In this document: positions 13,946-31,175 of the stretch, piece by piece | How positions within the stretch are numbered: position 1 is the stretch's first letter | How the letters are laid out: each line of letters opens with the position of its first letter | Assembly: GCA_903822205.1 (NCBI GenBank) | Contig: CAIJOK010000121.1 | Span: 1-39,617, forward strand | Direction of reading: 5' to 3' | Source: an uncultured beta proteobacterium | GTDB taxonomy: Bacteria; Pseudomonadota; Gammaproteobacteria; Burkholderiales; Burkholderiaceae_C | DNA: 39,617 nt | Notes under the pieces: generated by a model | Database searches by the model: none | Told to the model about the DNA's origin: nothing | Seen by the model: the letters and a program-made list of their open reading frames with translations, nothing else | Position numbers and translations under genes: made by a program

Positions 13946-14449
13946 AGGCTGGCACTTGGCAGGGATGTCAAACATGTATCCTGTACGGCAAATCAGGGTC
14001 ACAACACAGGGCTGTTGTGCGTCGGCCCCGTTTGCGTTAAGTCTTGCAGACCAACCTAAGCAAGCAAAGACTGCGCCTGTACCCGTAGGTGCACAAAGAT
14101 GAAACTGTGATGGAACTCACGAATTCAGGAGTATGTTATGATTCTTTTAAAATATATTTCATATAATATATTTATCTAAAGCAAACCATTCTCTTATGCG
14201 ACGTTCTTTCCATCTTCCCTCTTGTGCCCGGCAGTTTACCCATCCTATTGAACCAGTAGCAGGTCAGGCGACCAATACATCAAGCTCAACCATGGATTGG
14301 CGGAACTTATTTTTGCTTTGTCAGTGCCAAAATCTATATTTGGACTTGTACCGCAATATGAGACACCACATGAAATTATCCATTCAGTTTTTTTATTTAC
14401 TTTTTCCTCAAAAATTTGGGTGGATAAAAAAGCACCAACGTGCTGCAAA
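13946..14449 (+). promoter_or_regulatory. AT-rich region upstream of the exopolysaccharide locus
   Basis: A 504-bp stretch without a convincing gene. Composition changes from GC-rich to strongly AT-rich around 14130-14180. TATAAT at 14162-14167 is a good -10 candidate, but its -35 is weak. No known c-di-GMP riboswitch core was recognised. An 85-codon frame (14196-14453) overlaps the next ATG by 4 bp (ATGA) and could be a leader, but it has no family similarity and no clear ribosome site, so it is not called. Confidence 0.4.
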
Positions 14450-16720
14450 ATGATTTCAAGCAGACAACCCAAGACATTTCGGATCGCTATTCTGACGATT
14501 TTATTGGCGCTTACCGGTCTATCGGCAGAATCAAAACGGCATCCATCAGTTCCAAAGAACGAGAAGAAATCTGAAGCGCTCATCAAGCTGACTGCCAATC
14601 CGTCTTCATTAACGGCGGTTTTCGAACATCTCGCTAAAAATACCATCGTCGCTCGCTCAGTGACCATGACTGAACTGGGCGTGGGTTCGTCGCTGGTGAT
14701 GGGCGGTGTCAAGACACAGAGCAGCATTTACTGGCCAGTTCCTGCTGATGTGCCGCTGCAGGATGCTGAGATCACCTTCAACGCGGTGTACGAGCGCGCA
14801 GACCAGGGCCGCACCACCTTGCTACTGTCGATTGACGGCACACCCGCTCTTGCTCGAGGCGTTGCCTTGGAACGCGGTAATGCCGATTTGGTGGTGGCCG
14901 TGCCTCGCGTCGCACAGTCTTTTGGCTATGTTCATCTGGGTATTGACTGGAACACCGTCATTGCAGCCAAGGAAACGGATTCATCGTGTACCGATATGCG
15001 CTCCATGGGTAATTATTTGCGTGTGATGCCAACAAGTCGTCTGACGTATCGGTTCGATTCGGCACAAATCACCAACGTGTCTTCTGCCTGGACATCGTTG
15101 CCACCTGCACCTGTGGTTTTGGTGTCCAACAACAAGTTGAGCGCTGATGCCTTTGAATCTGCCTGGCGCATAGGCCTAACCATGGAAAGATCGGGTAAAC
15201 GCCCCAAAGTGGTCACTTTGCCGCAGGCAGGACACGAGGTGGACACCCACTTGGTATTCGTGCCCGATGTTCTCAAAAAAATCCCGTCTTTTGCAGCGTT
15301 GGCGAGAGGAGATCGGCACGTTTTAAGTCATGCCGCAGAAGCAGGTGCATGGTTTGTTCTGAGCCAACTGGGTGAGGCTCATGCGGATGTGGTGATTGCT
15401 GACCGCGCTATGGTGAGTGCCTTGTCTGCCAACCTGGATGCACTCGGTACTCAGATCAAGGAATACCTGCCAGAAACGTTTGAAAGCTTTGTGCAATTGC
15501 GACATCAGCGTCTTGACGGTTTGACAGCACAGACTGCGACAGGTAACTTTCGCCTGGTGCAGTCTCTTGGTGGCGTGACATTGGTGGTGGCACCGGATGC
15601 CGGCGGCAAGTTCGCAGGATTGTTGGGTACGCAGTGGCGAAGCGCAAGTACGTCCAGCGATTTGCTTGTCAGTACAGCCAATTTGCCATTGCCAGATACC
15701 AACAAGGTGTTGCTCAAATCTCTGCAAGGGGGCAACAGCAATCTGAGAGCGACAGACAACGGTGAATGGGCTTCCCAGTTCCAGATAGATGCCGATATTT
15801 TCAATGGCAAATTCCCAAGCGAATTGGTCATGGATTTTTCAGCTTCACCCAGTTCGCGCGGTGTGACACCAGTGGTTTCCGTATTCTTGAACGATGTGCT
15901 TTTGGCATCCAAACGACTTAAGGCCAATGGTGAACGGGAGCGAGTGACCGCCACCATTCCAGACTATTCATTGGGCTTGGGCAATGTCGTGAAGGTTGTG
16001 TTGATGCGTCCACCTGAGGGTGCTAACTGCCGTGAGAGCCAGGTTGTATTTCCATTTTCAGTCTTGCCAAGCAGCCACCTTGTATTGGATGCTGAAAGTT
16101 CGAATACTGACTTTAGGGGCATGGCTTCTCGTCTCACACAAGGTGGTGATGTTCTTGTGCCAAGCGCGTATCTCACCGATGCACAACGAAGTTTGAGTCG
16201 GCTGATTCGCATCAGTGCGGCAGCGGGTGTATCGCCCGCCAAAGCAAAATTGGTGACCGTCACGAAAGACCAAAAAGGCGAACCTCATTCATCTTTTTTG
16301 GCGCTTGATGTTGGTTTGGTTGTCAATGCACCGACTTCCTTGGTTGATAAAGGGCATCTTGTCATCAAAGATGAAAAAGATCAAAAACTGTTGGACATTG
16401 CTGGTCTGACCTGTATTGGCATTGCGTCGATTGAGCGCGTGAATGACGTGCGTGGGATCGTCTATCAAACCGTGGCCGACGATTTGGAGCATTACGACAT
16501 ACCCTTTCGGCTTAAAAATGGCAACTTTGCCATCATCCGGCGGGAAGGTCAGGTGACAGAATTTGACACACTAGGTAATCTGGATCGCCAGATACTTGAA
16601 CACGTCAATGATTCCAGGCTTATGCGCTATATCGGGTGGATTCTCGTTGGCGTGTTGATCGTGGGGTTTGTGGTACTGCTTTATGCCGCCAACCGCTATC
16701 GTGGACGCAAAAGTGGCTAA
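14450..16720 (+). CDS. BcsB-like periplasmic exopolysaccharide synthase subunit
   Basis: Resembles BcsB, the periplasmic, inner-membrane-anchored partner of cellulose synthase. With the ATG at 14450 the product has 756 residues (BcsB about 700-800). A signal peptide is visible at about 10-28 (RIAILTILLALTGLSAE), and a single C-terminal membrane span at about 725-745 (IGWILVGVLIVGFVVLLYA) ends in a basic tail. In between, two repeats of carbohydrate-binding-like and flavodoxin-like modules fit: SVTMTELGVGSSLVMG near the start, the SSCTDMRS cysteine block, and PVVLVSNN. The frame continues 51 codons upstream without similarity. The NfrB-type synthase starts 23 bp downstream, so I infer it replaces the catalytic BcsA partner here. 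Overall similarity to BcsB is at the architecture level; substrate unknown. Confidence 0.75.
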   Translation: MISSRQPKTFRIAILTILLALTGLSAESKRHPSVPKNEKKSEALIKLTANPSSLTAVFEHLAKNTIVARSVTMTELGVGSSLVMGGVKTQSSIYWPVPADVPLQDAEITFNAVYERADQGRTTLLLSIDGTPALARGVALERGNADLVVAVPRVAQSFGYVHLGIDWNTVIAAKETDSSCTDMRSMGNYLRVMPTSRLTYRFDSAQITNVSSAWTSLPPAPVVLVSNNKLSADAFESAWRIGLTMERSGKRPKVVTLPQAGHEVDTHLVFVPDVLKKIPSFAALARGDRHVLSHAAEAGAWFVLSQLGEAHADVVIADRAMVSALSANLDALGTQIKEYLPETFESFVQLRHQRLDGLTAQTATGNFRLVQSLGGVTLVVAPDAGGKFAGLLGTQWRSASTSSDLLVSTANLPLPDTNKVLLKSLQGGNSNLRATDNGEWASQFQIDADIFNGKFPSELVMDFSASPSSRGVTPVVSVFLNDVLLASKRLKANGERERVTATIPDYSLGLGNVVKVVLMRPPEGANCRESQVVFPFSVLPSSHLVLDAESSNTDFRGMASRLTQGGDVLVPSAYLTDAQRSLSRLIRISAAAGVSPAKAKLVTVTKDQKGEPHSSFLALDVGLVVNAPTSLVDKGHLVIKDEKDQKLLDIAGLTCIGIASIERVNDVRGIVYQTVADDLEHYDIPFRLKNGNFAIIRREGQVTEFDTLGNLDRQILEHVNDSRLMRYIGWILVGVLIVGFVVLLYAANRYRGRKSG

Positions 16721-16743
16721 CATTCGGTGACACCTAACTGAAC

Positions 16744-18909
16744 ATGTTTGCCACCTCTTGGACCTACTTGGCTGCAGACTATTACGCTGGTTTGGAGGTT
16801 GTTGCGATGGTCGTTGCGATCTTGATCATTTTGTCAGCGCTTGACGACTTGATCATTGATGTCTGGTACTGGATTATTAAGATAAAGCGACATTTTTCCA
16901 AACAGATTCGCTCTTACACACCCCTCACGCCAGAGCAGTTATGTCAGAAACAAGAGCAAGCTATTGCAATCATGGTGCCGGCCTGGATGGAATACGACGT
17001 GATTGCTGCCATGATTGAAAACATGGTAACGGTTCTCACTTACAAGAACTATGTGATTTTTGTGGGCACTTACGTCAACGATGCCGCAACGATCAAGGAG
17101 GTTGAAAGGATGCGCCGACGCTACAAGCAGTTACGGAGGGTTGAAGTTCCCAACCCTGGTCCAACCTGTAAGGCAGATTGCCTGAACTGGATTGTGCAGG
17201 CCATTTTTTTGCATGAACAAACCATGGGAATTGAGTTTTCCGGAGTGATTCTCCATGACAGTGAAGACGTACTTCACCCACTTGAACTCAAGTTTTTCAA
17301 CTACCTTCTGCCTCGCAAGGACATGATTCAACTGCCGGTTTTGTCGCTGGAACGCAAATGGTATGAACTGGTTGCAGGAACCTACATGGATGAATTTGCA
17401 GAGTCTCACGGCAAAGACATGACCGTACGCGAAAGAGTCTGTGGTGTGGTGCCCTCTGCAGGTGTGGGCACCTGCTTTTCAAGACGTGCCTTGCTGGCCT
17501 TGAATGCTGAATCCATGAATCAGCCATTCAATACCCGAAGCCTGACAGAAGATTACGACATTGGTAACCGTCTTGCCCACATGGACATGCGTTCTATTTT
17601 TGCTGTGTTTCAGGTGCAGTTTGATGTCAAACGCGAAAACTGGTTTGGTTCAAAACAAAACAATCCGATCACGATCAACATGCCACTGTGTGTGCGCGAG
17701 TATTTCCCTGATACTTTTCGCACAGCCTATCGGCAAAAAGCGCGTTGGACCCTTGGCATTGGTTTGCAAAGCTGGGATCAGCTTGAGTTCAGGGGTACGT
17801 TGGCGGCCAAGAATTTTTTGCTCAGAGATCGAAAAGGTGTACTGACCTCTTTGATCAGCATATTTGCTTATTTGTTACTGATTCAATTTTTGCTGTTTCA
17901 GATGGCCGCTTATGCTGGGCTATGGACCTTGTATTACCCTCCCTTGTTTTCCGTGGATGGCTGGTGGCCTTATGCCTTGGTATTTAATGTGTTTGCCTTG
18001 ATCAGTCGCGTTGGGCACAGGGCTTATTTTGTGACTGTGTTTTACGGTTGGCGGCATGGCTTGATGTCCATTCCTCGAATGATCATCAGCAACTTTGTGA
18101 ACTTTATGGCCGTCTCACGCGCCTGGAAACTGTACTTAAGCTATTTGTTTGCTGGCAAACCCATGGTGTGGGACAAAACCATGCATGATTTTCCCTCTGC
18201 AGAGGCACTGGTGGTACAAAAACAGCGCATTGGCGATTTGCTCCAATCCTGGCAAGCAGTGGACCAGGTCAGGCTCAGCAGCGCGCTTGAGGAACAGATG
18301 CACCTGAAAATTCCTTTGGGCCGTGTGCTCATTTCAAAAGGCTGGTTGGACGATGAGACATTGGCCGAGGCCATTGCCTTTCAATCTGATCTGGCCAGAG
18401 CAGTACTGCGCGCAGAGACAGTGATCCAATACGCAGCATCACTTCCCTTTGAACTTTGCTCACAATGCAGGGCAATTTATCTGGGCAACAATGATCAGGG
18501 CAAACCCATGTTGGGTGTTACCAGCCCCTTGGCCCCCGAGTCACTGAACCAAATCAACCACTTACTGGGGTCTTCTCCATTGCAATACATTGTTCGCGAA
18601 AGTGAGATAGACGCTGCCCTTTTGTTACTGAGCAAAGAATCAGGCCCGCTGAGTACCAAGGTTGCCGCCCCACCAAAAACGCCTTTGTTGGGTGATTTGT
18701 TAATTGAGCGTGGTCTCATTGACCATCAAGTATTTGAGGATGCCCTGGAGAAGTATCAACCACAGCACCACGGGCGCATTGGTGACTATCTTGTCAATGA
18801 GGGAATTATTGACAGAGATGCCATTGAACAAGTTGTTTTACTTCAGCGAAAGCAACAATTCGGTACTCTGTCAGAATGTACCGACAATTTGGAATTGCAG
18901 GCGGCATGA
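16744..18909 (+). CDS. nfrB: NfrB-type c-di-GMP-regulated glycosyltransferase (exopolysaccharide synthase)
   Basis: Inner-membrane family 2 glycosyltransferase resembling E. coli NfrB, which makes a ManNAc-containing exopolysaccharide used as the phage N4 receptor. Seen in 721 residues: N-terminal membrane span (about 13-37); cytoplasmic catalytic domain with HDSED (171-175), TED (268-270) and QxxRW (331-335); further spans at about 365-460; then a cytoplasmic tail. The tail holds MshEN motifs, the nucleotide-binding module that binds c-di-GMP: a first pair at 495-518 and 524-547 followed by a GspE_N-like segment to about 635, and a second pair at about 648-701. Motif glycine 10 of the first block is replaced by Gln. 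I infer c-di-GMP switches polymer synthesis on. Its stop overlaps the nfrA start by 4 bp. Confidence 0.9.
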   Translation: MFATSWTYLAADYYAGLEVVAMVVAILIILSALDDLIIDVWYWIIKIKRHFSKQIRSYTPLTPEQLCQKQEQAIAIMVPAWMEYDVIAAMIENMVTVLTYKNYVIFVGTYVNDAATIKEVERMRRRYKQLRRVEVPNPGPTCKADCLNWIVQAIFLHEQTMGIEFSGVILHDSEDVLHPLELKFFNYLLPRKDMIQLPVLSLERKWYELVAGTYMDEFAESHGKDMTVRERVCGVVPSAGVGTCFSRRALLALNAESMNQPFNTRSLTEDYDIGNRLAHMDMRSIFAVFQVQFDVKRENWFGSKQNNPITINMPLCVREYFPDTFRTAYRQKARWTLGIGLQSWDQLEFRGTLAAKNFLLRDRKGVLTSLISIFAYLLLIQFLLFQMAAYAGLWTLYYPPLFSVDGWWPYALVFNVFALISRVGHRAYFVTVFYGWRHGLMSIPRMIISNFVNFMAVSRAWKLYLSYLFAGKPMVWDKTMHDFPSAEALVVQKQRIGDLLQSWQAVDQVRLSSALEEQMHLKIPLGRVLISKGWLDDETLAEAIAFQSDLARAVLRAETVIQYAASLPFELCSQCRAIYLGNNDQGKPMLGVTSPLAPESLNQINHLLGSSPLQYIVRESEIDAALLLLSKESGPLSTKVAAPPKTPLLGDLLIERGLIDHQVFEDALEKYQPQHHGRIGDYLVNEGIIDRDAIEQVVLLQRKQQFGTLSECTDNLELQAA

Positions 18910-21515
18910 TGACCATGCAAGTCAAAATGCGCTGGATGATCGCTCTGCTGTGGTCTGTTTGTGGCATCATGGGTGTCAATGCACAAACCTATGTCATTGA
19001 GCTGCCGCTGGCGGGGCAAGCCTTGATCCTGACCGAACAAGCAGAGGCCGCTTGGGATCAGGGTGACAGAGCGCAGGCCATGACTTTGATCACTGAAGCA
19101 ATCCGTCTGCGGCCCGATGCCAAACGTATTCAAACTTTACGCACAAAAATTGAGAAGAAACATAGCAATGTTAAAGCAGACTCAAGTCATGAAACCCCTC
19201 TTTTTGTCAAGAATAGCAAAAGCGAACGTCACTCAGTAGAACAAAAGACGCTTGCGCCTCCACCAGTACCAGTCGTCGTGGCTGATGCGCAAATTGTTTA
19301 CGATCTGATCAAAAATGGGAATCCAGAGCCTGCGCTTGCGTTTGCAGTCAATCTTTCAATGGCGCACCCTAACGATCGCAACATACAAATTGCGCATGTG
19401 AACGCGCTGTTTGCTGCAGGCAAGCAAGCCGAAGCGGATGCTTCGGTGAATCAGGCTATCGCACAGTTTGGCATGGATGACACCTTACTGGTATTGCGGG
19501 AAGGCATTCGTCGTCAATTGGCCGAGAGTTCTACGTACAGGATTCATCGTGCGCTCGAAAATGACGATGTGCTTGCCGCAATTCAGGCCGCAAAAGATAC
19601 CATTGTTTATGCGCCAGATGTCATGGACAACCGTCTGCTCTTCATCCAGATATTGATGAATGCGGGGCAGTACGAAGATGCCGAGCGATCGGCAACGGAA
19701 GCCATCTCCATTGACCCCGATGATGTGTTGCCCTGGATGTTGCGGGCCTATGCCCGTCAATACCAAGGACAACGCGCTACTGCCGTGGCTGATTTCAAGC
19801 ATGTGTTGACGGGGTTCGATTTGACAGCCAACGAGCAAAAGCTGTTCAGGGTCATCATGGCAGATGCTGCACTGGCATCATCCGAACCTGAAACAGCCCT
19901 TGAGTTGCTTCGCCCCATTGAAGAATCTGCAACAGATGCGGTGGACAACAGGGTCATTTGGCATCGCCGAGCGGCAATGCTTCAATTGTCTGAACAATCC
20001 AGCGGTGCGATCGTCCTGGCTGAAACACTCAGGCCATTGAGTTTTACCTGCCGCATCAGCCCTTACGGGCGTGAATGCAGTTTGCTTCCTGCCATGTTGG
20101 TGCAAGACCCCGCTTATGCTATGGCGGAGCAAACCTACACGGCTATTCGTGCGAAAAACTATCCACAAGCAGTTCAAAAAGCACGTCTCGCTGTCCAATT
20201 GGATGCCAACAATACCGACTATCGCTCTCTGCTGATCAACGCATTGGTGCTTAACAATGATCTCAAAGAAGCTGACCAACTGGCAACCCTGGCCATCACG
20301 CCTGAAGCCACTTCGGCGCAAGCGCTGGTGCAACGCGGCGAGATCCGTGACAAGCTAGGCCAACGAGAACTGGCCGCCCAGGACTATTCAGCGGCGCTGA
20401 AGATGGATGTTTTGCCATTGGCTCAAACGTTGCCCCTGCTCGCCAAGATCAACCGCAAGGCTGAGGCCAGAGACCGTTTGGCGCAGGCGTTGCAGACTGG
20501 TGAAAAGCCCGTGGCCTCCGACCTGGATCTGGCTTACCTCGCCATCAACATTGGTGACGATGAAATCGCCAATGATGCCTTTAAACGCAGTGATGAGGCA
20601 GGTCTTCTGAGCGTTTTGAATTTGCAGGACGCAGCTTACGTGGCCATCCGGGGGGGGCTCGACCAGAGGGCGATAGCTTATTTGTCGCGGGCCGTGGATA
20701 ACTTGTCACCCGACCCGCCGCTGGAACTGCAAGACAGCGTTGAAATTCAATCGTTGCTGAATTTACGACGAATGATTGCAGAACTGTCACGAAGTTGGGG
20801 GGCGAGCATGTCGGTCAGCTACCGTGGCGGCATTCCCTCCGTGGGTGGCATCCAGTCGAACGTGGACACTGACCAAAGTATGCAAATTGGCAGTGAGCTG
20901 TACTGGCGTCCCTTTGGCTATCAAAACGGCAGTCCATTCGAGGTCTATGCACGTGCGTTCGAAACACCCAGCAACAGCGCTGGTGGCTTGGTGGGTTCAG
21001 AAAGTTTGCAAGGCTCTGTCGGTATGCGCTGGAAGCCATTGACCGATGCCAGCCTGATATTCGTGCTGGGACACTTGTTTCCGGTCGATTCAAAAGTGAA
21101 CAGCGACTGGCTGGCGCAAGTGGCTTACTCCGCTGGTGTGGGGGGGGAGTTCAGAACAGACACACCCAGTTGGGAAACACAGCAGTACTATGCCGAGGCG
21201 GGTCGCTATTTGCAGCATTCGCAGAACTACGCGTCGGGCAATGTGCGCTGGGGCCGCAGTTTCAGGCTCGATGGCATCAGCCCGGATTTGCTTGCTTTTC
21301 CTCATGCCGTGCTGGTTGGCGACTACAACTCTGATTATGCCGAGCGCAGTGCCATTGGTTTTGGTCTTGGCATTCAGTTACGGTACGGGTTCCGTCAGGA
21401 TACCTACAATGCCCATCGCTCTTACTTTGATTTGTCTTTGCAGCACCGCACAAGCCTCCAAGGCAACGAGGAACGCGCCAAAGGGACGTTTCTGACCATG
21501 ATCATGTCGTATTGA
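18906..21515 (+). CDS. nfrA: NfrA-type TPR outer-membrane export protein
   Basis: Resembles E. coli NfrA, the outer-membrane partner of NfrB and the N4 adhesion receptor. With the ATG at 18906 it has 869 residues (E. coli NfrA about 990). Seen: signal peptide (RWMIALLWSVCGIMGVNA, about 8-26); tetratricopeptide-like helical repeats from about 35 to 620, for example AEAAWDQGDRAQAMTL, AGQYEDAERSATEAI and a KNYPQAVQKARLAV unit; and a C-terminal domain from about 630 with alternating strands ending in an aromatic residue, as in beta-barrel proteins. It is translationally coupled to nfrB. The barrel would provide the polymer's route across the outer membrane, so it may also be exposed to phages. 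A frame-shifted earlier ATG (18876) is possible. Confidence 0.85.
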   Translation: MMTMQVKMRWMIALLWSVCGIMGVNAQTYVIELPLAGQALILTEQAEAAWDQGDRAQAMTLITEAIRLRPDAKRIQTLRTKIEKKHSNVKADSSHETPLFVKNSKSERHSVEQKTLAPPPVPVVVADAQIVYDLIKNGNPEPALAFAVNLSMAHPNDRNIQIAHVNALFAAGKQAEADASVNQAIAQFGMDDTLLVLREGIRRQLAESSTYRIHRALENDDVLAAIQAAKDTIVYAPDVMDNRLLFIQILMNAGQYEDAERSATEAISIDPDDVLPWMLRAYARQYQGQRATAVADFKHVLTGFDLTANEQKLFRVIMADAALASSEPETALELLRPIEESATDAVDNRVIWHRRAAMLQLSEQSSGAIVLAETLRPLSFTCRISPYGRECSLLPAMLVQDPAYAMAEQTYTAIRAKNYPQAVQKARLAVQLDANNTDYRSLLINALVLNNDLKEADQLATLAITPEATSAQALVQRGEIRDKLGQRELAAQDYSAALKMDVLPLAQTLPLLAKINRKAEARDRLAQALQTGEKPVASDLDLAYLAINIGDDEIANDAFKRSDEAGLLSVLNLQDAAYVAIRGGLDQRAIAYLSRAVDNLSPDPPLELQDSVEIQSLLNLRRMIAELSRSWGASMSVSYRGGIPSVGGIQSNVDTDQSMQIGSELYWRPFGYQNGSPFEVYARAFETPSNSAGGLVGSESLQGSVGMRWKPLTDASLIFVLGHLFPVDSKVNSDWLAQVAYSAGVGGEFRTDTPSWETQQYYAEAGRYLQHSQNYASGNVRWGRSFRLDGISPDLLAFPHAVLVGDYNSDYAERSAIGFGLGIQLRYGFRQDTYNAHRSYFDLSLQHRTSLQGNEERAKGTFLTMIMSY

Positions 21516-21573
21516 TTGGCATTGAGGGCGTTTTTCTGTGCCTGGTATCGTTCATTCATAGTGAGGTTTCAAA

Positions 21574-22239
21574 ATGAGCTTTTTTGTGTTTCTGACTGGT
21601 TTTTTCACGGGCTTTGCACTGGCATCATCTGCCATGGCGCAGCAGCCCGCACTGGCACAGTTGTACCCTGCTGCACCACCGGCGGGGTCTTCATTTGTGC
21701 GTGTGGTCAACCCTTTGCAAGAATCCGTCAAATTTAGCCTATCGGGTATGGATGAGTCAAAGCCTATTTCGGCGCATGGCAATATTGCCTCCAGTTACAA
21801 AATTGTCAATCCGGACAAGCCATTGCAGATCGGGGTCAATGGCAAAGTGCTGCCTGATGCCATTGCCATTGAACCCAACAAGTTCTTAACTTTGGTACTA
21901 GGACGCAACGGCGAAACTTTCAAAGTGACGGTCATCCCCGATGCGACACAGGGCAACAATGCCTTAAAAGCTGATCTGCGGGCCTACAACCTGACATCTG
22001 GTTGCGTTTCCACCATCATCGCCAACAAAGAAACCAAGGTTTTCACCGATATCCCCGTGGGTGGATCGTCGCGTCGTATGGTCAATCCAATTTCTGTTGA
22101 ATTTGTAGCGCAATGTGGCAAAACGATGTCTGAACCCTTGGCCGCACCCCCCTTACAACCTGGTTCCCGTTATAGCCTGTTTGTCACGGGCAACGAAACA
22201 AATCTTGCATTGACCGGAAAAACAGACACGGTGGACTGA
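21574..22239 (+). CDS. algF: AlgF-like periplasmic O-acetylation protein
   Basis: Resembles AlgF, a periplasmic protein required for O-acetylation of alginate. The 221 residues begin with a signal peptide (FLTGFFTGFALASSAMA, about 4-22). Family blocks seen: LYPAAPPAGSSFVRVVNP (about 30-47), a KPLQIGVNGK and FLTLVLGRNG middle section, KADLRAYNLTSG, and a C-terminal RYSLFVTGN. The ribosome site GAGG stands 9 nt before the ATG. It lies 58 bp after nfrA and 18 bp before the AlgJ-like gene, so it is probably part of the same transcript. Symbol by resemblance to the family; the glycan here is unlikely to be alginate. Confidence 0.82.
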   Translation: MSFFVFLTGFFTGFALASSAMAQQPALAQLYPAAPPAGSSFVRVVNPLQESVKFSLSGMDESKPISAHGNIASSYKIVNPDKPLQIGVNGKVLPDAIAIEPNKFLTLVLGRNGETFKVTVIPDATQGNNALKADLRAYNLTSGCVSTIIANKETKVFTDIPVGGSSRRMVNPISVEFVAQCGKTMSEPLAAPPLQPGSRYSLFVTGNETNLALTGKTDTVD

Positions 22240-22257
22240 CTCGCATGGAATCGCCGC

Positions 22258-23259
22258 ATGGATACGTCCAATGTCGAAAAAACGTTTTCTAATCAACGTT
22301 TTTTGCAGTTCATCACTCTTTTTGTCTGCGCAACATTTTTGTTTGCAAGCACCCCTGCGCGCACTGAAGATTTGGTCATCAAAGGCCAGGATGGCTGGCT
22401 TTTTCCTGTTTGGGAAAGCTTGACCGATGCCTCTAAACCCCGTATTGATGCCAACCTAGTCATCATCGGTGCGGTCAGAAAACATTTGGCTGAGAAAAAC
22501 ATCCAACTATTGACCTTGGTGGTGCCCATGAAGGCATCGTTTTATCCGGATCGGATGCCACCAACAAAACCAATCAGTGCAGAGGTTATGAATCGCTACG
22601 CTTATGTCATGGCTGGTTTATGTGCAGCAGGCATCCGCACGGTCAATGTGGCAAATGTCTTGCGCGCTCAAGAAAAGGATGGGCAACATGCATTTTTTCG
22701 AACGGATTACCATTGGACCGCCCAAGCTGCAGAGGCCAGTGCTGTAGCGACCGCCGAACAAATCAGACAGCAGGTGCACTTTGACAAAGAGCCTGCGGGC
22801 GGAAGTGAGTTGGGTGAATGGGTCAATACTCGTCTCTATGGTGATCTGGCTGTGCGTTACATGTCAGCAGAGCAGCGAGTGTTACTCAAACGCGATGTCT
22901 TTCGTGTTCGTGAGCAGCCAAAACAGTCCATGTCTTTGCTGGACGATGACCTCGCTGAAGTCCATGTGGTAGGAAACAGTTTTGTGCAACCTTACCTGGG
23001 CTTTCCTCAAAAACTATCCGAAACACTCAATCGACCGGTATCTCTGACTTGGAAATTCGGTAATGTGGGGCCGTGGGCAACGATGCTCCAGTATCTGGAG
23101 TCGGACGAGTTCCTGCAAAACAAACCTAAGGTTATCCTCTGGCAGCTCAATGAACCTCGCATGCATTCTGGACCGGATGCGGTGAATGTATGGGATACAG
23201 AATCTTTGATGAAAGCCGAGGTTTGGCTCAGCAGAGTTGTCGCTGCCATCTCAAGGTAA
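22258..23259 (+). CDS. algJ: AlgJ/AlgX-like SGNH-type O-acetyltransferase
   Basis: Resembles AlgJ/AlgX, periplasmic SGNH-fold enzymes that acetylate secreted polysaccharide. In 333 residues: an N-terminal hydrophobic anchor or uncleaved signal (FLQFITLFVCATFLFA, about 16-31); DGWLFP early in the fold; the catalytic pair in TDYHWT (D150, H152); and VVGNSFVQPY with the nucleophilic Ser at 241. These are the three catalytic residues expected of the family, with the usual spacing. It follows the AlgF-like gene by 18 bp and precedes the DUF4434-like gene by 11 bp. The O-acetylation partner AlgI is not found in the window. Confidence 0.85.
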   Translation: MDTSNVEKTFSNQRFLQFITLFVCATFLFASTPARTEDLVIKGQDGWLFPVWESLTDASKPRIDANLVIIGAVRKHLAEKNIQLLTLVVPMKASFYPDRMPPTKPISAEVMNRYAYVMAGLCAAGIRTVNVANVLRAQEKDGQHAFFRTDYHWTAQAAEASAVATAEQIRQQVHFDKEPAGGSELGEWVNTRLYGDLAVRYMSAEQRVLLKRDVFRVREQPKQSMSLLDDDLAEVHVVGNSFVQPYLGFPQKLSETLNRPVSLTWKFGNVGPWATMLQYLESDEFLQNKPKVILWQLNEPRMHSGPDAVNVWDTESLMKAEVWLSRVVAAISR

Positions 23260-23270
23260 GGTAACAAAAG

Positions 23271-24152
23271 GTGTCTTGTTTATCTGATTCAATCACAGCT
23301 CTGCGATGCATTTGCATCTCAATGGGGTTGGCCTGCACTCTATCTGTCTCATCCTGCGCCAGCGGCGGCCGGTCCGAGCAAATTTTGGTACAAGGTACAG
23401 TATGGCAACCCGATGGCGCTACGGTCCATCCAAAGGGTCAATGGCATCACCTGGGTGCCCGAAAGTTATTGATTCAATGGAGCATTGTTGATGCCGTTGC
23501 TTTTGTTTCGGGCACGTCGGTGCCTGTTGCTGAACCACTACCCGACTGGGGTCGGATAGCCAAAGAGCCTTGGGCGCAAGAAGTCATTTTGGGTTTGGCA
23601 GGGCATTTTGACGAGAATGTATCCCGAAGTGATTTGCCGAGATTAATCAGCTTGTCACAACAACTGACGCAGTTGCCAACACCCCTCAATGTCGTCGGAT
23701 GGTATTTTCCTGTCGAAGTAGACCCCACTTGGAGAGAAGCTCATTTATTGGCGAAGTACTTTGAGCAACTGCCTCGTCCGCTGTGGATCAGCGCCTATGA
23801 CAGCGCAAATTTGGGTGCTGACGCACTGGCTGACTCGTTGGCCACATGGTTGCCTGCTGATGTAGGTGTATTCTTTCAGGATGGCGTGGGTATCCACGCC
23901 CGCAGCGCCGCAGTGGCTGTGCGTTATGCCGATGTACTGGTCGCACGATTGGGTGTCCATCGGGTGAAGATCATCGCAGAGGCTTTTCGACCCAAGATCG
24001 GCGGCGGTTTTCGTTCTGCAACTGCGGCAGAACTCTTGTCGCAACTGAGTCTTTATAAAAATCATGGTGTTTACCTGTTTGATGGCCCTCATTACGTTCC
24101 AGATACTCTGGTAAATGAGCTACTTCAATCCATGTCCATGCCAACGAAATAA
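23271..24152 (+). CDS. DUF4434-like lipoprotein, possible glycoside hydrolase
   Basis: A 293-residue protein starting at GTG, with a ribosome-site-like AAGGTAA upstream. A lipobox VSSC (about 27-30) follows a hydrophobic stretch, so I infer an outer-membrane or periplasmic lipoprotein. The body resembles DUF4434: GTVWQPDG at the start, a LGARKLLIQWS strand, NVVGWYFPVEVDPTW, GVFFQDGVG, and a DGPHY-type end, consistent with a TIM-barrel hydrolase-like fold. Catalytic residues cannot be assigned confidently. By analogy, E. coli carries the periplasmic protein gene ybcH next to nfrA. A role in trimming or releasing the polymer is inference. An ATG at 23322 would remove most of the lipoprotein signal. 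Confidence 0.6.
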   Translation: MSCLSDSITALRCICISMGLACTLSVSSCASGGRSEQILVQGTVWQPDGATVHPKGQWHHLGARKLLIQWSIVDAVAFVSGTSVPVAEPLPDWGRIAKEPWAQEVILGLAGHFDENVSRSDLPRLISLSQQLTQLPTPLNVVGWYFPVEVDPTWREAHLLAKYFEQLPRPLWISAYDSANLGADALADSLATWLPADVGVFFQDGVGIHARSAAVAVRYADVLVARLGVHRVKIIAEAFRPKIGGGFRSATAAELLSQLSLYKNHGVYLFDGPHYVPDTLVNELLQSMSMPTK

Positions 24153-24183
24153 ACTGACGCAACCGGTAATTGAGAATTTACAA

Positions 24184-24264
24184 ATGAATTTGACTAAACC
24201 AATTGTTTCTTCTAATGAACTCAACTTTAGACATTCAGCACATCATGAAGAGCTAACTTGTTGA
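24184..24264 (+). other. Short open frame in the AT-rich gap upstream of wecB
   Basis: ATG at 24184 opens a 26-codon frame that runs into the TGA at 24262-24264, inside the AT-rich repeat. It has no recognisable similarity and no strong ribosome site. It could be a remnant of a deleted gene. A second short frame, 24353-24412 (19 codons), has a ribosome-site-like GTGGAG just before its ATG and could be a leader peptide for wecB. Both are weak calls. Confidence 0.2.
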
Positions 24265-24275
24265 TTTCTAATAAC
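24254..24275. repeat. AT-rich dispersed repeat, copy E
   Basis: These 22 bp match 39538-39559 with about three mismatches (the CTTGTTGATTT/TTAATAA core). The copy lies in the gap between the DUF4434-like gene and wecB, separating wecB from the main operon. No clear terminator or promoter was identified in the remaining gap. Confidence 0.5.
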
Positions 24276-24435
24276 AATGTAGAAAAAGTTCTGATTCCGT
24301 CAAGTCATTGATTTTGTTCAATAAATCTTCGAGAGTCTAAAGTGGAGTTCTAATGAAAACGAACATGAAAATGACAAATTCATTTACTTTGGTACGTGTC
24401 TCCATGTCGTAGAACGACTCATAACAAGATAAAAA

Positions 24436-25560
24436 ATGAAAATACTTTGTGTTTTTGGTACGCGTCCTGAAGCTATCAAAATGGCCCCCTTGGTGCGTGC
24501 TTTGGCAGCAGATCCGCGATTTTTGACACGGGTCTGCGTGACGGGTCAGCACCGCGAGATGCTTGACCAGGTGCTTGATCTTTTTCATATCAAGCCAGAT
24601 TTTGACCTCAGCGTCATGAAGAGCGGTCAAGACCTGACAGATGTCACCACAGCTATCCTGCACGGCATGACGGGCACATTTGCCCAATTCAGACCAGATA
24701 GGGTGTTGGTGCATGGTGACACGACCACTACCTTTGCGGCTAGCCTGGCTGCTTATTACCAGCAAATCCGTGTGGCACACGTAGAGGCTGGGTTGCGCAC
24801 CGGCAACATGTATTCGCCGTGGCCCGAAGAAGGCAATCGAAGGCTCACATCTGCCTTGGCCAGCCAACACTTTGCACCCACCCAAACTTCTCGAGCCAAC
24901 TTGCTTGCAGAAGGCATTGCCCCAGAATCCATCACGGTAACAGGCAACACGATCATTGATGCACTGCAAGATGTGGTGCATCGATTAAACATGGATGCCA
25001 ATTTACGTGAACTTGCCGCAGCACCCCTTAGATTTCTTGAGCCACAGCGCAAGCTGATTTTGGTCACTGGTCACCGTCGTGAGAGTTTTCAGGGTGGTTT
25101 TGATCGAATATGCCTTGCACTCGTGCAAATAGCCAGACAGCATCCAGATGTAGATATTGTGTATCCCGTTCACTTGAACCCCCATGTGCGTGAACCAGTA
25201 AATCGCTTACTGGGTCAAATTGACAACGTTCATCTGATTGAGCCACTTGACTACTTGTCTTTTGTGTATCTGATGAGTCGTTCGCACATCATCCTGACCG
25301 ATTCAGGTGGTATTCAGGAAGAGGCACCCTCGTTGGGCAAACCAGTCTTGGTGATACGCGACACAACGGAGCGACCAGAGGCAGTAGCCGCAGGCACGGT
25401 CAAGCTGGTTGGCACGGATACCAAAAACATCGTCAACGAGTTACACCAACTGTTGACCCAGGATGCCAAGTACCTTGCCATGAGCCACGCTCATAATCCC
25501 TATGGAGACGGCCAAGCATGCCACCGTATTGTGGAGGCATTGGGTGGTGTCTCACGTTGA
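24436..25560 (+). CDS. wecB: UDP-N-acetylglucosamine 2-epimerase (non-hydrolysing)
   Basis: Interconverts UDP-GlcNAc and UDP-ManNAc in the cytoplasm. Seen in 374 residues: the N-terminal signature [29 protein letters not shown] (about 36-44), HGDTTTTFA (about 95-103), [26 protein letters not shown] and [11 protein letters not shown], all canonical. In E. coli, WecB supplies ManNAc for the NfrA/NfrB polymer, so its place beside nfrB and nfrA here fits a ManNAc donor role. It sits 283 bp after the DUF4434-like gene and may have its own promoter. It carries one arm of a 24-bp inverted repeat at its 3' end. It is convergent with znuA. Confidence 0.95.
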
Positions 25561-29240: not shown

Positions 29241-29387
29241 CACTTCGCAACGTTCAGCCATCAATCATCGATCCATTGGTATGAAAATTGGGCCAATGAT
29301 TTCACTGGATTCAGTTTGAGGCGCAAGGCATTGCCCCCAAGACCAGCCGTGCCCATGAGAACCTTAGTCGCCAAGGAGCAAGTCACC

Positions 29388-31175
29388 ATGTCTCGAATAG
29401 ATTGTCCCAGTAGGACGCAGTGGGCCGTCAGGTGGATGCTGCTTTGTGCGGTGTGGCTGACACTGGTGACATCACCCGCCAGGGCTGCACTGCCTGAGGT
29501 TTTGACCCAGTTTTATTTGTACGACAGCCCGCTGACCAAAGTGTTTTTTGTGGCGAACGGCACTACCTACGACCCGATCAAAGACCGCTGGAAGTCTTAT
29601 TTGCGGCGTTCCACTTCGACCTTCAAAGAGGTTTCTCGCGCTGGTTTGTTGGCGGGCCTCAAACCCGGCGTGCTGGTGCTGGCATCAGCCGTGCTGCTAG
29701 ACGACGCTGAGCGCGAAGCGGTTGAACGCTTTACAGCCTCTGGCGGCAGCCTGCTGCTAACCTGGGGCACGGGTGCACGCAACGCCCAGGGCCAATGGAT
29801 GGGCTATTCTTTTATTGAGAAATTGCTGGACATGAAGGTCACCGGCAAAGTGAACATTGACTCCAACGAACGCTTCCTCAATCCCTTTGGTGACGGCCCC
29901 TTGTCGTGGTCACTGCCTGCTGGCGAGCGTATTTTTTTGGGCGAGATCGCCGAGACACCCCTGCGGGTGGACTCTGCCCACTTAGCCGCCCGCTACTTTG
30001 ACTGGATGCGTGCACCCAAACCTAAAAACTCCAACGGCGCGGTGGCATTCCTTGAACACAATGGGTCAAGGCGGGTGTATCTGGGGTTTTCTGAGGCCAG
30101 TTGGGACTATGACGAGCGCCTGCGGCTGCCCAAGCTGCTGGACAGCATCATGGTGTGGCTGCAACATGTACCCGCTGTCAGCAAAGCTGCTTGGCCCAAT
30201 GGCAACGTTTCAGCACAATTGTTGGAGATGGACACCGAGGCCAAATTTGCCAATGCCCTTAACTTTGCAGCAGAGCTGGATCAGGCCAAAATTCGTGGCA
30301 CTTTTTATTGCCTGACCAGTGTGGCCAAAGACAACCGCGATGTATTGCAAAAACTCTCGACCAAACACGAGATCGGTTACCACGCCGAGGTTCACTATGG
30401 TTTCAAGGGCAAGCCTGAGGAGATCCAAAAGGACAGACTGAACACCATGATCGGCGACATGAAAGGTGTCATGGGTGTGAGGTTTTTACCCACCGTCACG
30501 GGGTTTCGGGCACCAACAGAGTCCTGGGATGCCACCACTGAGAAATTGTTGCGTCAGTTGGGCATTCACCACCATGTGGCAGACCCCGGGTCCTCAGAGT
30601 CGCGCGTGCCTTTCTTTTCGATGTCAGAGCCTGACCTGGATGTCGAAGAGGCCATCGTTGTCATGCCCAGAACGCAGATGGATGATTTGAACTACCTGGG
30701 CCTCAAACTGGATGTGGACAGGGCATCGGCGTTGATCATGCTGGACTTTGACTACCTGCACGAGACCGGTGCCTTGGGCGTGTTGTCGGTGCATTCGCAA
30801 AACTACGGTGCGGACGGCCTGATGGCTAGGCTAACCCCCCCTTACGTCAAACGTCTCGAAAAATACCGTCAGGACGTATGGGCCGCATCAGGCCAAGAGA
30901 TCGCCGATTGGTGGCGGGCCAGGGCGCGGGTAGCCTTTCAACCCGGGCCATTGATAGGCGGCAGGTTTACCTTTGCCGTTCTGGCCCCAGGCCAAGTTAA
31001 AGGTTTGGCCATGGTCGTGACGCATCCCGCCCAAGATGCCATCGTCAAGCGTGTCGTGGCAGCCTCTGAGGGCATACCCGTGCCTGAGCTGGTGCATCTC
31101 GACTCCTGGCGATCGATTTTGATTTTCAGAAACGAGCTGAAGATCGGCAGCTACAGTTACTTTTTGGAGTTTTAA
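29388..31175 (+). CDS. Exported polysaccharide deacetylase-like protein (NodB fold)
   Basis: A 595-residue secreted protein. Start ATG at 29388 chosen for its ribosome site AAGGAG and the signal peptide directly after it (WMLLCAVWLTLVTSPARA, about 16-33). Residues about 40-260 resemble a class I glutamine-amidotransferase/ThuA-like fold (VLVLASAVLLDDAEREAV, GGSLLLTWG). Residues about 280-480 fit the NodB/CE4 deacetylase fold: metal/catalytic candidates D282 in EMDTE, H332 and H336 in YHAEVHYG, GFRAP (R374) and SVHSQ (H469). Substrate unknown. It does not belong to the exopolysaccharide operon by position, but could deacetylate a GlcNAc or ManNAc polymer; that is inference. Confidence 0.65.
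   Translation: MSRIDCPSRTQWAVRWMLLCAVWLTLVTSPARAALPEVLTQFYLYDSPLTKVFFVANGTTYDPIKDRWKSYLRRSTSTFKEVSRAGLLAGLKPGVLVLASAVLLDDAEREAVERFTASGGSLLLTWGTGARNAQGQWMGYSFIEKLLDMKVTGKVNIDSNERFLNPFGDGPLSWSLPAGERIFLGEIAETPLRVDSAHLAARYFDWMRAPKPKNSNGAVAFLEHNGSRRVYLGFSEASWDYDERLRLPKLLDSIMVWLQHVPAVSKAAWPNGNVSAQLLEMDTEAKFANALNFAAELDQAKIRGTFYCLTSVAKDNRDVLQKLSTKHEIGYHAEVHYGFKGKPEEIQKDRLNTMIGDMKGVMGVRFLPTVTGFRAPTESWDATTEKLLRQLGIHHHVADPGSSESRVPFFSMSEPDLDVEEAIVVMPRTQMDDLNYLGLKLDVDRASALIMLDFDYLHETGALGVLSVHSQNYGADGLMARLTPPYVKRLEKYRQDVWAASGQEIADWWRARARVAFQPGPLIGGRFTFAVLAPGQVKGLAMVVTHPAQDAIVKRVVAASEGIPVPELVHLDSWRSILIFRNELKIGSYSYFLEF

Follow-up and report, generated by a model that had tools for sequence, protein, structure and literature searches.

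The window analysed here is a stretch of 39,617 nucleotides (nt) from an uncultured beta proteobacterium of the Burkholderiales (GenBank assembly GCA_903822205.1, contig CAIJOK010000121.1, forward strand), and the system in question is a putative exopolysaccharide locus at positions 14450-25560. The locus consists of seven intact open reading frames (ORFs), all on the plus strand and at the coordinates that a first-pass annotation of the sequence had given, in the order BcsB-type subunit, NfrB-type synthase, NfrA, AlgF, AlgJ/X-type protein, DUF4434 protein, and WecB (Table 1). That annotation had assigned the genes to these families and had regarded them as one machine. Both proposals were borne out, the assignments by profiles and predicted folds and the machine by a BcsB-NfrB-NfrA core that recurs across genera. 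The seven genes form a real cluster, which very probably produces a sugar polymer for the cell surface and exports it.

Table 1. Genes of the exopolysaccharide locus, with positions in the window.
Feature	Position	Strand	Characteristics
BcsB-type periplasmic subunit	14450..16720	+	756 amino acids (aa); N-terminal hydrophobic stretch, mixed beta and alpha/beta domains, C-terminal long helix (722-755)
NfrB-type processive family 2 glycosyltransferase (GT2) synthase with C-terminal MshEN cyclic di-GMP (c-di-GMP) module	16744..18909	+	GT2 and NCBIfam matches; MshEN motifs at ~18226-18390
NfrA-type tetratricopeptide repeat (TPR) and outer-membrane barrel export protein	18876..21515	+	NfrA_C 159.8 bits; TPR families
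AlgF-type periplasmic acetylation adaptor	21574..22239	+	Pfam AlgF 60.5 bits (cut-off 34.4); PDB AlgF 6czt, E 3.9e-6
AlgJ/AlgX-type SGNH O-acetyltransferase	22258..23259	+	D-H-S triad intact; ALGX 220.5 bits; nearest solved chain AlgJ 4o8v, E 1.1e-18
DUF4434/YbcH-type protein, by eye a lipoprotein (VSSC, Cys29)	23271..24152	+	Predicted TIM barrel; glycosidase-like E149, D204, E237
WecB, non-hydrolysing UDP-N-acetylglucosamine 2-epimerase (supply of UDP-N-acetylmannosamine, UDP-ManNAc)	24436..25560	+	TIGR00236 519.7 bits (cut-off 210.15); PDB epimerase chains

The start of the first gene was set at the ATG at 14450, whereby the longest frame opens with a TTG at 14297. AlgF and AlgJ/X were placed clearly by their profiles, whereas the product of the 14450 gene scored 19.4-19.7 bits with the Pfam BcsB family (PF03170), narrowly below the curated cut-off of 21. 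The family was matched at E <= 0.001 by seven of the eight proteins scanned, this product among them (best E 4.5e-12). When its predicted structure was compared with the PDB by Foldseek, the top 22 matches were all chains of bacterial cellulose synthase (best E 7.2e-24); 18 of them carry BcsB in the entry title, and the remaining four (9b8v, 5ej1, 5eiy, 4hg6) we take to be BcsB as well. An hhalign comparison of the BcsB-like set with three canonical BcsB proteins was suggestive (probability 53%, E 1.3e-4), and a sequence search of solved structures with the BcsB profile gave no match. Judged by its predicted fold, the 14450 product belongs with BcsB. A stray cellulose gene was rejected as a candidate for 14450, since the organism's own genome has a separate BcsB on another contig (C23), above the cut-off of the cellulose-type model, and the window synthase matches no CelA model at E <= 0.001 and is not the CelA/BcsA-type synthase of a Bcs system. 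The synthase next to the BcsB of C23 reached 186.5 bits with the CelA model, below its cut-off of 699.1.

The window synthase was recognized by the NCBIfam model PRK15489.1 (1045 bits, cut-off 537) and by the c-di-GMP motif NF053729 (75 bits, cut-off 38), the latter with two matched stretches, and its MshEN module matched PilB/PilF chains in the PDB. It retains the equivalents of the active-site residues D169, D267, and W330 and of the MshEN residue G491 of Escherichia coli NfrB, whereby L490 and L537 of the E. coli module are replaced by isoleucine. By eye, a second, weaker MshEN-type pair is visible in the tail of the protein (18685-18860). In three acetylating loci from other genomes (L019, L020, L023), NfrB stops after the first MshEN module at ~565-573 aa and lacks a C-terminal stretch of ~150 residues that the window protein has. 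The longest frame of nfrA overlaps the end of nfrB.

For the analysis of gene neighborhoods, genome contigs were searched with an NfrB profile of seven rows; 554 loci were confirmed, of which the best 80 were considered. The gene order is present in relatives, as the first-pass annotation had expected: among these 80 loci, BcsB lies immediately 5' of NfrB in 77 (split into two frames in L036 and L071), and AlgF together with AlgX occurs in 27. The BcsB-NfrB-NfrA core was found in Pseudomonas, Paraburkholderia, Herbaspirillum, Ralstonia, Ramlibacter, and Microvirga. In an order-level sample of 349 genomes, including the organism's own, a high-scoring NfrB (over 900 bits) occurred in eight, with BcsB adjacent in seven; for the eighth (G304), nfrB is truncated by the end of the contig. 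Seven further genomes of this sample carry a lower-scoring, E. coli-like NfrB (474-619 bits), and the fetched stretch held BcsB in none of them, one stretch being cut at NfrB by the contig end. A class-level sample of 369 genomes yielded NfrB in eight, among them again the own genome and one partial match (G485). Of the others, one more genome has an adjacent BcsB (G644), four have none (G574, G534, G396, G437), and one has a divergent BcsB beside WecB (G523). The 11 E. coli-like genomes in which no BcsB adjoins NfrB were also searched with the Pfam BcsB model: eight gave no match, and in the other three (G292, G574, G534) BcsB is on another contig or far from NfrB. In a tree of 48 NfrB rows, thinned from 102 at 90% identity, the BcsB-bearing lineage comprises 36 rows, including those of Collimonas and G304, with branch support of 100/100, and E. 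coli NfrB stands on the other side of that branch. The presence of BcsB requires at least three changes on this tree. As judged from these sequences, NfrB proteins of the BcsB-bearing lineage stand apart from that of E. coli, which is a point that the present analysis adds.

Based on gene families, folds, conserved residues, gene order, and published work, we consider it probable that the locus encodes a synthase-dependent Nfr-type exopolysaccharide machine in a BcsB-bearing, acetylating form. In such a machine, WecB would provide UDP-ManNAc, and NfrB in the inner membrane would polymerize and extrude the chain when c-di-GMP binds to its MshEN module; for E. coli NfrB, c-di-GMP binding and dependence on WecB have been reported (PMC8669469, PMC8669472). 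The BcsB-type protein, to judge by its predicted fold, would guide the emerging chain across the periplasm, as BcsB does for cellulose. AlgJ and AlgF would attach O-acetyl groups, whereby the acetyl would be carried across the membrane by a membrane-bound O-acyltransferase (MBOAT) whose gene would lie outside the locus, which itself has none. The DUF4434/YbcH protein may act as a glycosidase in the periplasm, where it would trim or remove chains, and NfrA would export the polymer.

Several observations weigh against this reading. Six of the seven rows of the NfrB profile came from a search led by BcsB, and the sample comprises just the best 80 of the 554 loci, so that the figure of 77 in 80 is biased towards BcsB. 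The three loci of these 80 that lack BcsB are all from Collimonas, and G304 has no BcsB anywhere in its genome. Moreover, in G292 a BcsB-like gene of this lineage (L018, 11501-13708) has no NfrB beside it and lies near a pyruvate kinase gene, the E. coli-type NfrB of that genome being located elsewhere, and in G245 and G363 more distant BcsB-like genes adjoin frames with only a weak match to the NfrB profile (13 and 36 bits). Thus, BcsB of this sort is not bound to NfrB alone. The window synthase also stays below the cut-off of the NCBIfam NfrB equivalog (596 bits, cut-off 1170). To these points are added the lack of an AlgI-type MBOAT in the locus and the gap before, and the position of, wecB, which are dealt with below.

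The DUF4434-type product was matched below cut-off by Pfam DUF4434 (20.1 bits, cut-off 30) and by NCBIfam PRK09936.1 (DUF4434 family protein; 32.9 bits, cut-off 344). An hhalign comparison of the DUF4434 set with the YbcH set (probability 99.1%, E 4.3e-19) indicated homology to E. coli YbcH. Residues E149, D204, and E237 are identical in all 33 proteins compared, which come from both NfrB lineages, and the predicted model puts them where barrel strands 4, 6, and 7 end. In retaining barrel glycosidases, the usual catalytic pair consists of glutamates on strands 4 and 7. A predicted glycosidase active site is common to the DUF4434 protein and E. coli YbcH, which is likewise added by the present analysis; in the open-licence literature no article was found that joins YbcH with "glycoside hydrolase," and none that names DUF4434. 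In contrast, YbcH has been proposed to be a catalytically dead scaffold (Junkermeier & Hengge, PMC8669469), and the same article reports that a ybcH deletion in E. coli suppressed a motility defect only partially. It would fit with such a scaffold that TIM barrels are common and that the DUF4434 profile found no match in a sequence search of solved structures. In addition, many barrel families follow the first match of the fold comparison at similar Z (14.2 to ~12). PgaB ties with these other barrels, so that fold support for a kinship of DUF4434 with PgaB is weak, and hhalign found no match between DUF4434 and full-length PgaB as a single sequence. However, the invariance of the three residues across two NfrB lineages and their placement on the barrel argue for a working enzyme, and we regard the dead scaffold as unlikely, though it is the best-surviving of the alternatives.

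Acetylation of the polymer by AlgF and AlgJ is deduced from the two genes and the conserved triad. The D-H-S residues are kept in 31 of 31 aligned AlgJ/X proteins, including that of the window, and therefore selection on them appears to persist. In a quick tree, the 31 main Nfr-associated AlgX/J proteins form a single group (Shimodaira-Hasegawa-like approximate likelihood-ratio test, SH-aLRT, 100; without bootstrap), which is separate from alginate AlgJ, from the AlgX-like paralogues of the own genome, and from the five second AlgX copies of AlgI-bearing loci that were included. The tree joins several long branches, and it places the window protein only approximately. An AlgI-type MBOAT is missing from the locus: a PF03062 search of the own genome ruled out AlgI as an overlooked window ORF and found MBOATs on contigs C96 and C94 only, each near another AlgX-like gene. 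The same state was met in other genomes. Of the 27 acetylating loci among the best 80, 10 include an MBOAT (Herbaspirillum, Paraburkholderia, Ralstonia, Rudaea), and the other 17, all from Pseudomonas, do not. The AlgI-less state of the acetylation pair, here and in these Pseudomonas loci, is a further addition of the present analysis. One could thus imagine a machine that is real but in which AlgF and AlgJ are idle or otherwise employed, the polymer not being O-acetylated for want of an AlgI at the locus. Against such idleness speaks the intact triad, as well as the presence of an MBOAT elsewhere in the genome in 17 of 17 of these Pseudomonas, although the same holds for 17 of 17 Pseudomonas whose nfr locus has no AlgF/AlgX, so that this comparison does not discriminate. 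The surroundings of the distant MBOAT were inspected in six of the 17 acetylating strains and presented an alginate-type AlgX-AlgI-AlgJ-AlgF block in each. Weighing both sides, we hold idle acetylation genes to be rather improbable.

Two further regions of the own genome carry acetylation-type genes. On contig C94 (L028, 8894-14518) MBOAT, FkbH_N-like, MaoC-like, and AlgX-like genes form a run that resembles another acetylation-type cluster. Contig C30 (L175) harbors, close to its end, a second AlgF, two genes of the AlgX-like kind, and a 648-aa protein that no Pfam family matches; no MBOAT was found on this contig.

That the polymer contains ManNAc is suggested by WecB. Alternatively, WecB could serve another pathway and NfrB could use another sugar. 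In the window, wecB follows the DUF4434 gene after an AT-rich gap of 283 nt and lies downstream of NfrB, whereas in the 71 of the best 80 loci that have a WecB-family gene in the fetched stretch it is always located upstream of NfrB. Furthermore, NfrB of the window and NfrB of E. coli fall into different lineages, and the substrate of the latter has itself only been deduced in print (PMC8669469). On the other hand, WecB-family genes are frequent at these loci (seven of the 71 genes being lower-scoring), and the linkage of wecB and nfrB has also been put forward as a rule by Junkermeier & Hengge (PMC8669469). The locus copy is also the sole WecB above cut-off in the own genome, whereby one other match, on contig C113, reached 205.2 bits against 210.15. 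A polymer that is not based on ManNAc is thus improbable. That unrelated exopolysaccharide genes came together here by chance, for which the low GC content and the patchy presence in the genus could be cited, was rejected because the same gene order is conserved in dozens of loci from several families, and we give it hardly any credence.

Going beyond the machine as such, the findings can be joined into a wider picture, which as a whole we put forward as tentative and rather less probable than not. There would be two Nfr lineages, one with a nearly fixed BcsB. In both, DUF4434/YbcH, including E. coli YbcH, would not be a scaffold but would act on the Nfr polymer as a functional retaining glycosidase, and AlgF-AlgJ pairs without AlgI would draw acetyl from the MBOAT of another polysaccharide pathway.

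The locus has a guanine-plus-cytosine (GC) content of 50.4%, compared to 56.9% in the window to its left and 56.2% to its right, which agrees with the composition shift noted in the first-pass annotation. Of the AT-rich borders named there, the left one (~14.0-14.5 kb) was confirmed, whereas the second stretch (~24.0-24.4 kb) lies within the locus ahead of wecB and not at its far border. A BcsB-like match was present in one of 24 other genomes of the genus, several of which are incomplete. Lateral acquisition of the locus is compatible with the low GC content and this patchy presence. The nearest neighbors are ordinary: the left side has genes for a pyridoxal phosphate (PLP) enzyme and for an HDOD protein, the right side a ZnuA-type zinc-uptake ABC (ATP-binding cassette) operon. 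Past this operon, 3.8 kb 3' of wecB, a 619-aa protein with a polysaccharide-deacetylase domain is encoded at 29316-31175 on the plus strand (Pfam 33.4 bits). Scanning the window for Rfam families and tRNA genes yielded no matches.

Compared to known systems, the locus reportedly shares a BcsB-type subunit and alginate-type acetylation genes with the Wss system for acetylated cellulose (WssI), which is said to use a cellulose synthase with PilZ instead of NfrB, NfrA, and WecB. With the alginate genes AlgI-AlgJ-AlgF-AlgX it has the AlgF and AlgJ/X families and the D-H-S triad in common, but alginate AlgJ falls into a separate group and alginate has the AlgI that is missing here. The E. coli genes nfrBA-ybcH together with wecB (NGR pathway) resemble the locus in the MshEN-gated synthase, NfrA, the YbcH/DUF4434 relative, and the dependence on WecB (PMC8669469, PMC8669472), whereas they have no adjoining BcsB or acetylation genes and an NfrB of the separate lineage. 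From its description, the PGR locus of Acinetobacter baumannii is alike in PgrD (BcsB homologue), PgrC (NfrB), and PgrF (WecB), and PgrG (outer-membrane porin) and PgrE (PgaB-C-like) are listed as further likenesses; acetylation genes are not named in that description and its link to c-di-GMP is unclear (PMC12507263, 2025). Phage StAb3 no longer adsorbs to A. baumannii when the BcsB homologue is deleted, and a mutation in the WecB homologue leads to phage resistance (PMC12507263). The Nfr polymer of E. coli serves as a phage receptor, as does the related PGR glycan of A. baumannii, and both are termed uncharacterised in the passages cited. The present data offer two handles on them, namely a subdivision of Nfr systems by BcsB and acetylation, and a predicted polymer-specific hydrolase in both NfrB lineages. 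Such a hydrolase could aid the identification of the sugar, and acetylation could affect which phages bind.

The first-pass annotation had further stated that no described system joins the BcsB, Nfr, and Alg sets. This is contradicted by Achromobacter xylosoxidans, in which nfrA, nfrB, wecB, a BcsB homologue, and periplasmic O-acetyltransferases are clustered as in the locus (Sellner et al., 2021, PMC8669472); the few sentences that the article gives to this cluster contain no experiment on it and no word on AlgI. Similarly, an alginate-type acetyltransferase cluster lies within the nfr cluster of Simplicispira suum (Junkermeier & Hengge, 2021, PMC8669469). Hence, the earlier interpretation stands in its gene assignments and its machine, yet not in its novelty, and its acetylation set is incomplete without AlgI. 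Because the gene combination has been described (PMC8669472, PMC8669469) and its BcsB part has been tested earlier (PMC12507263), the locus is a new example of an already reported gene combination and no new kind of system.

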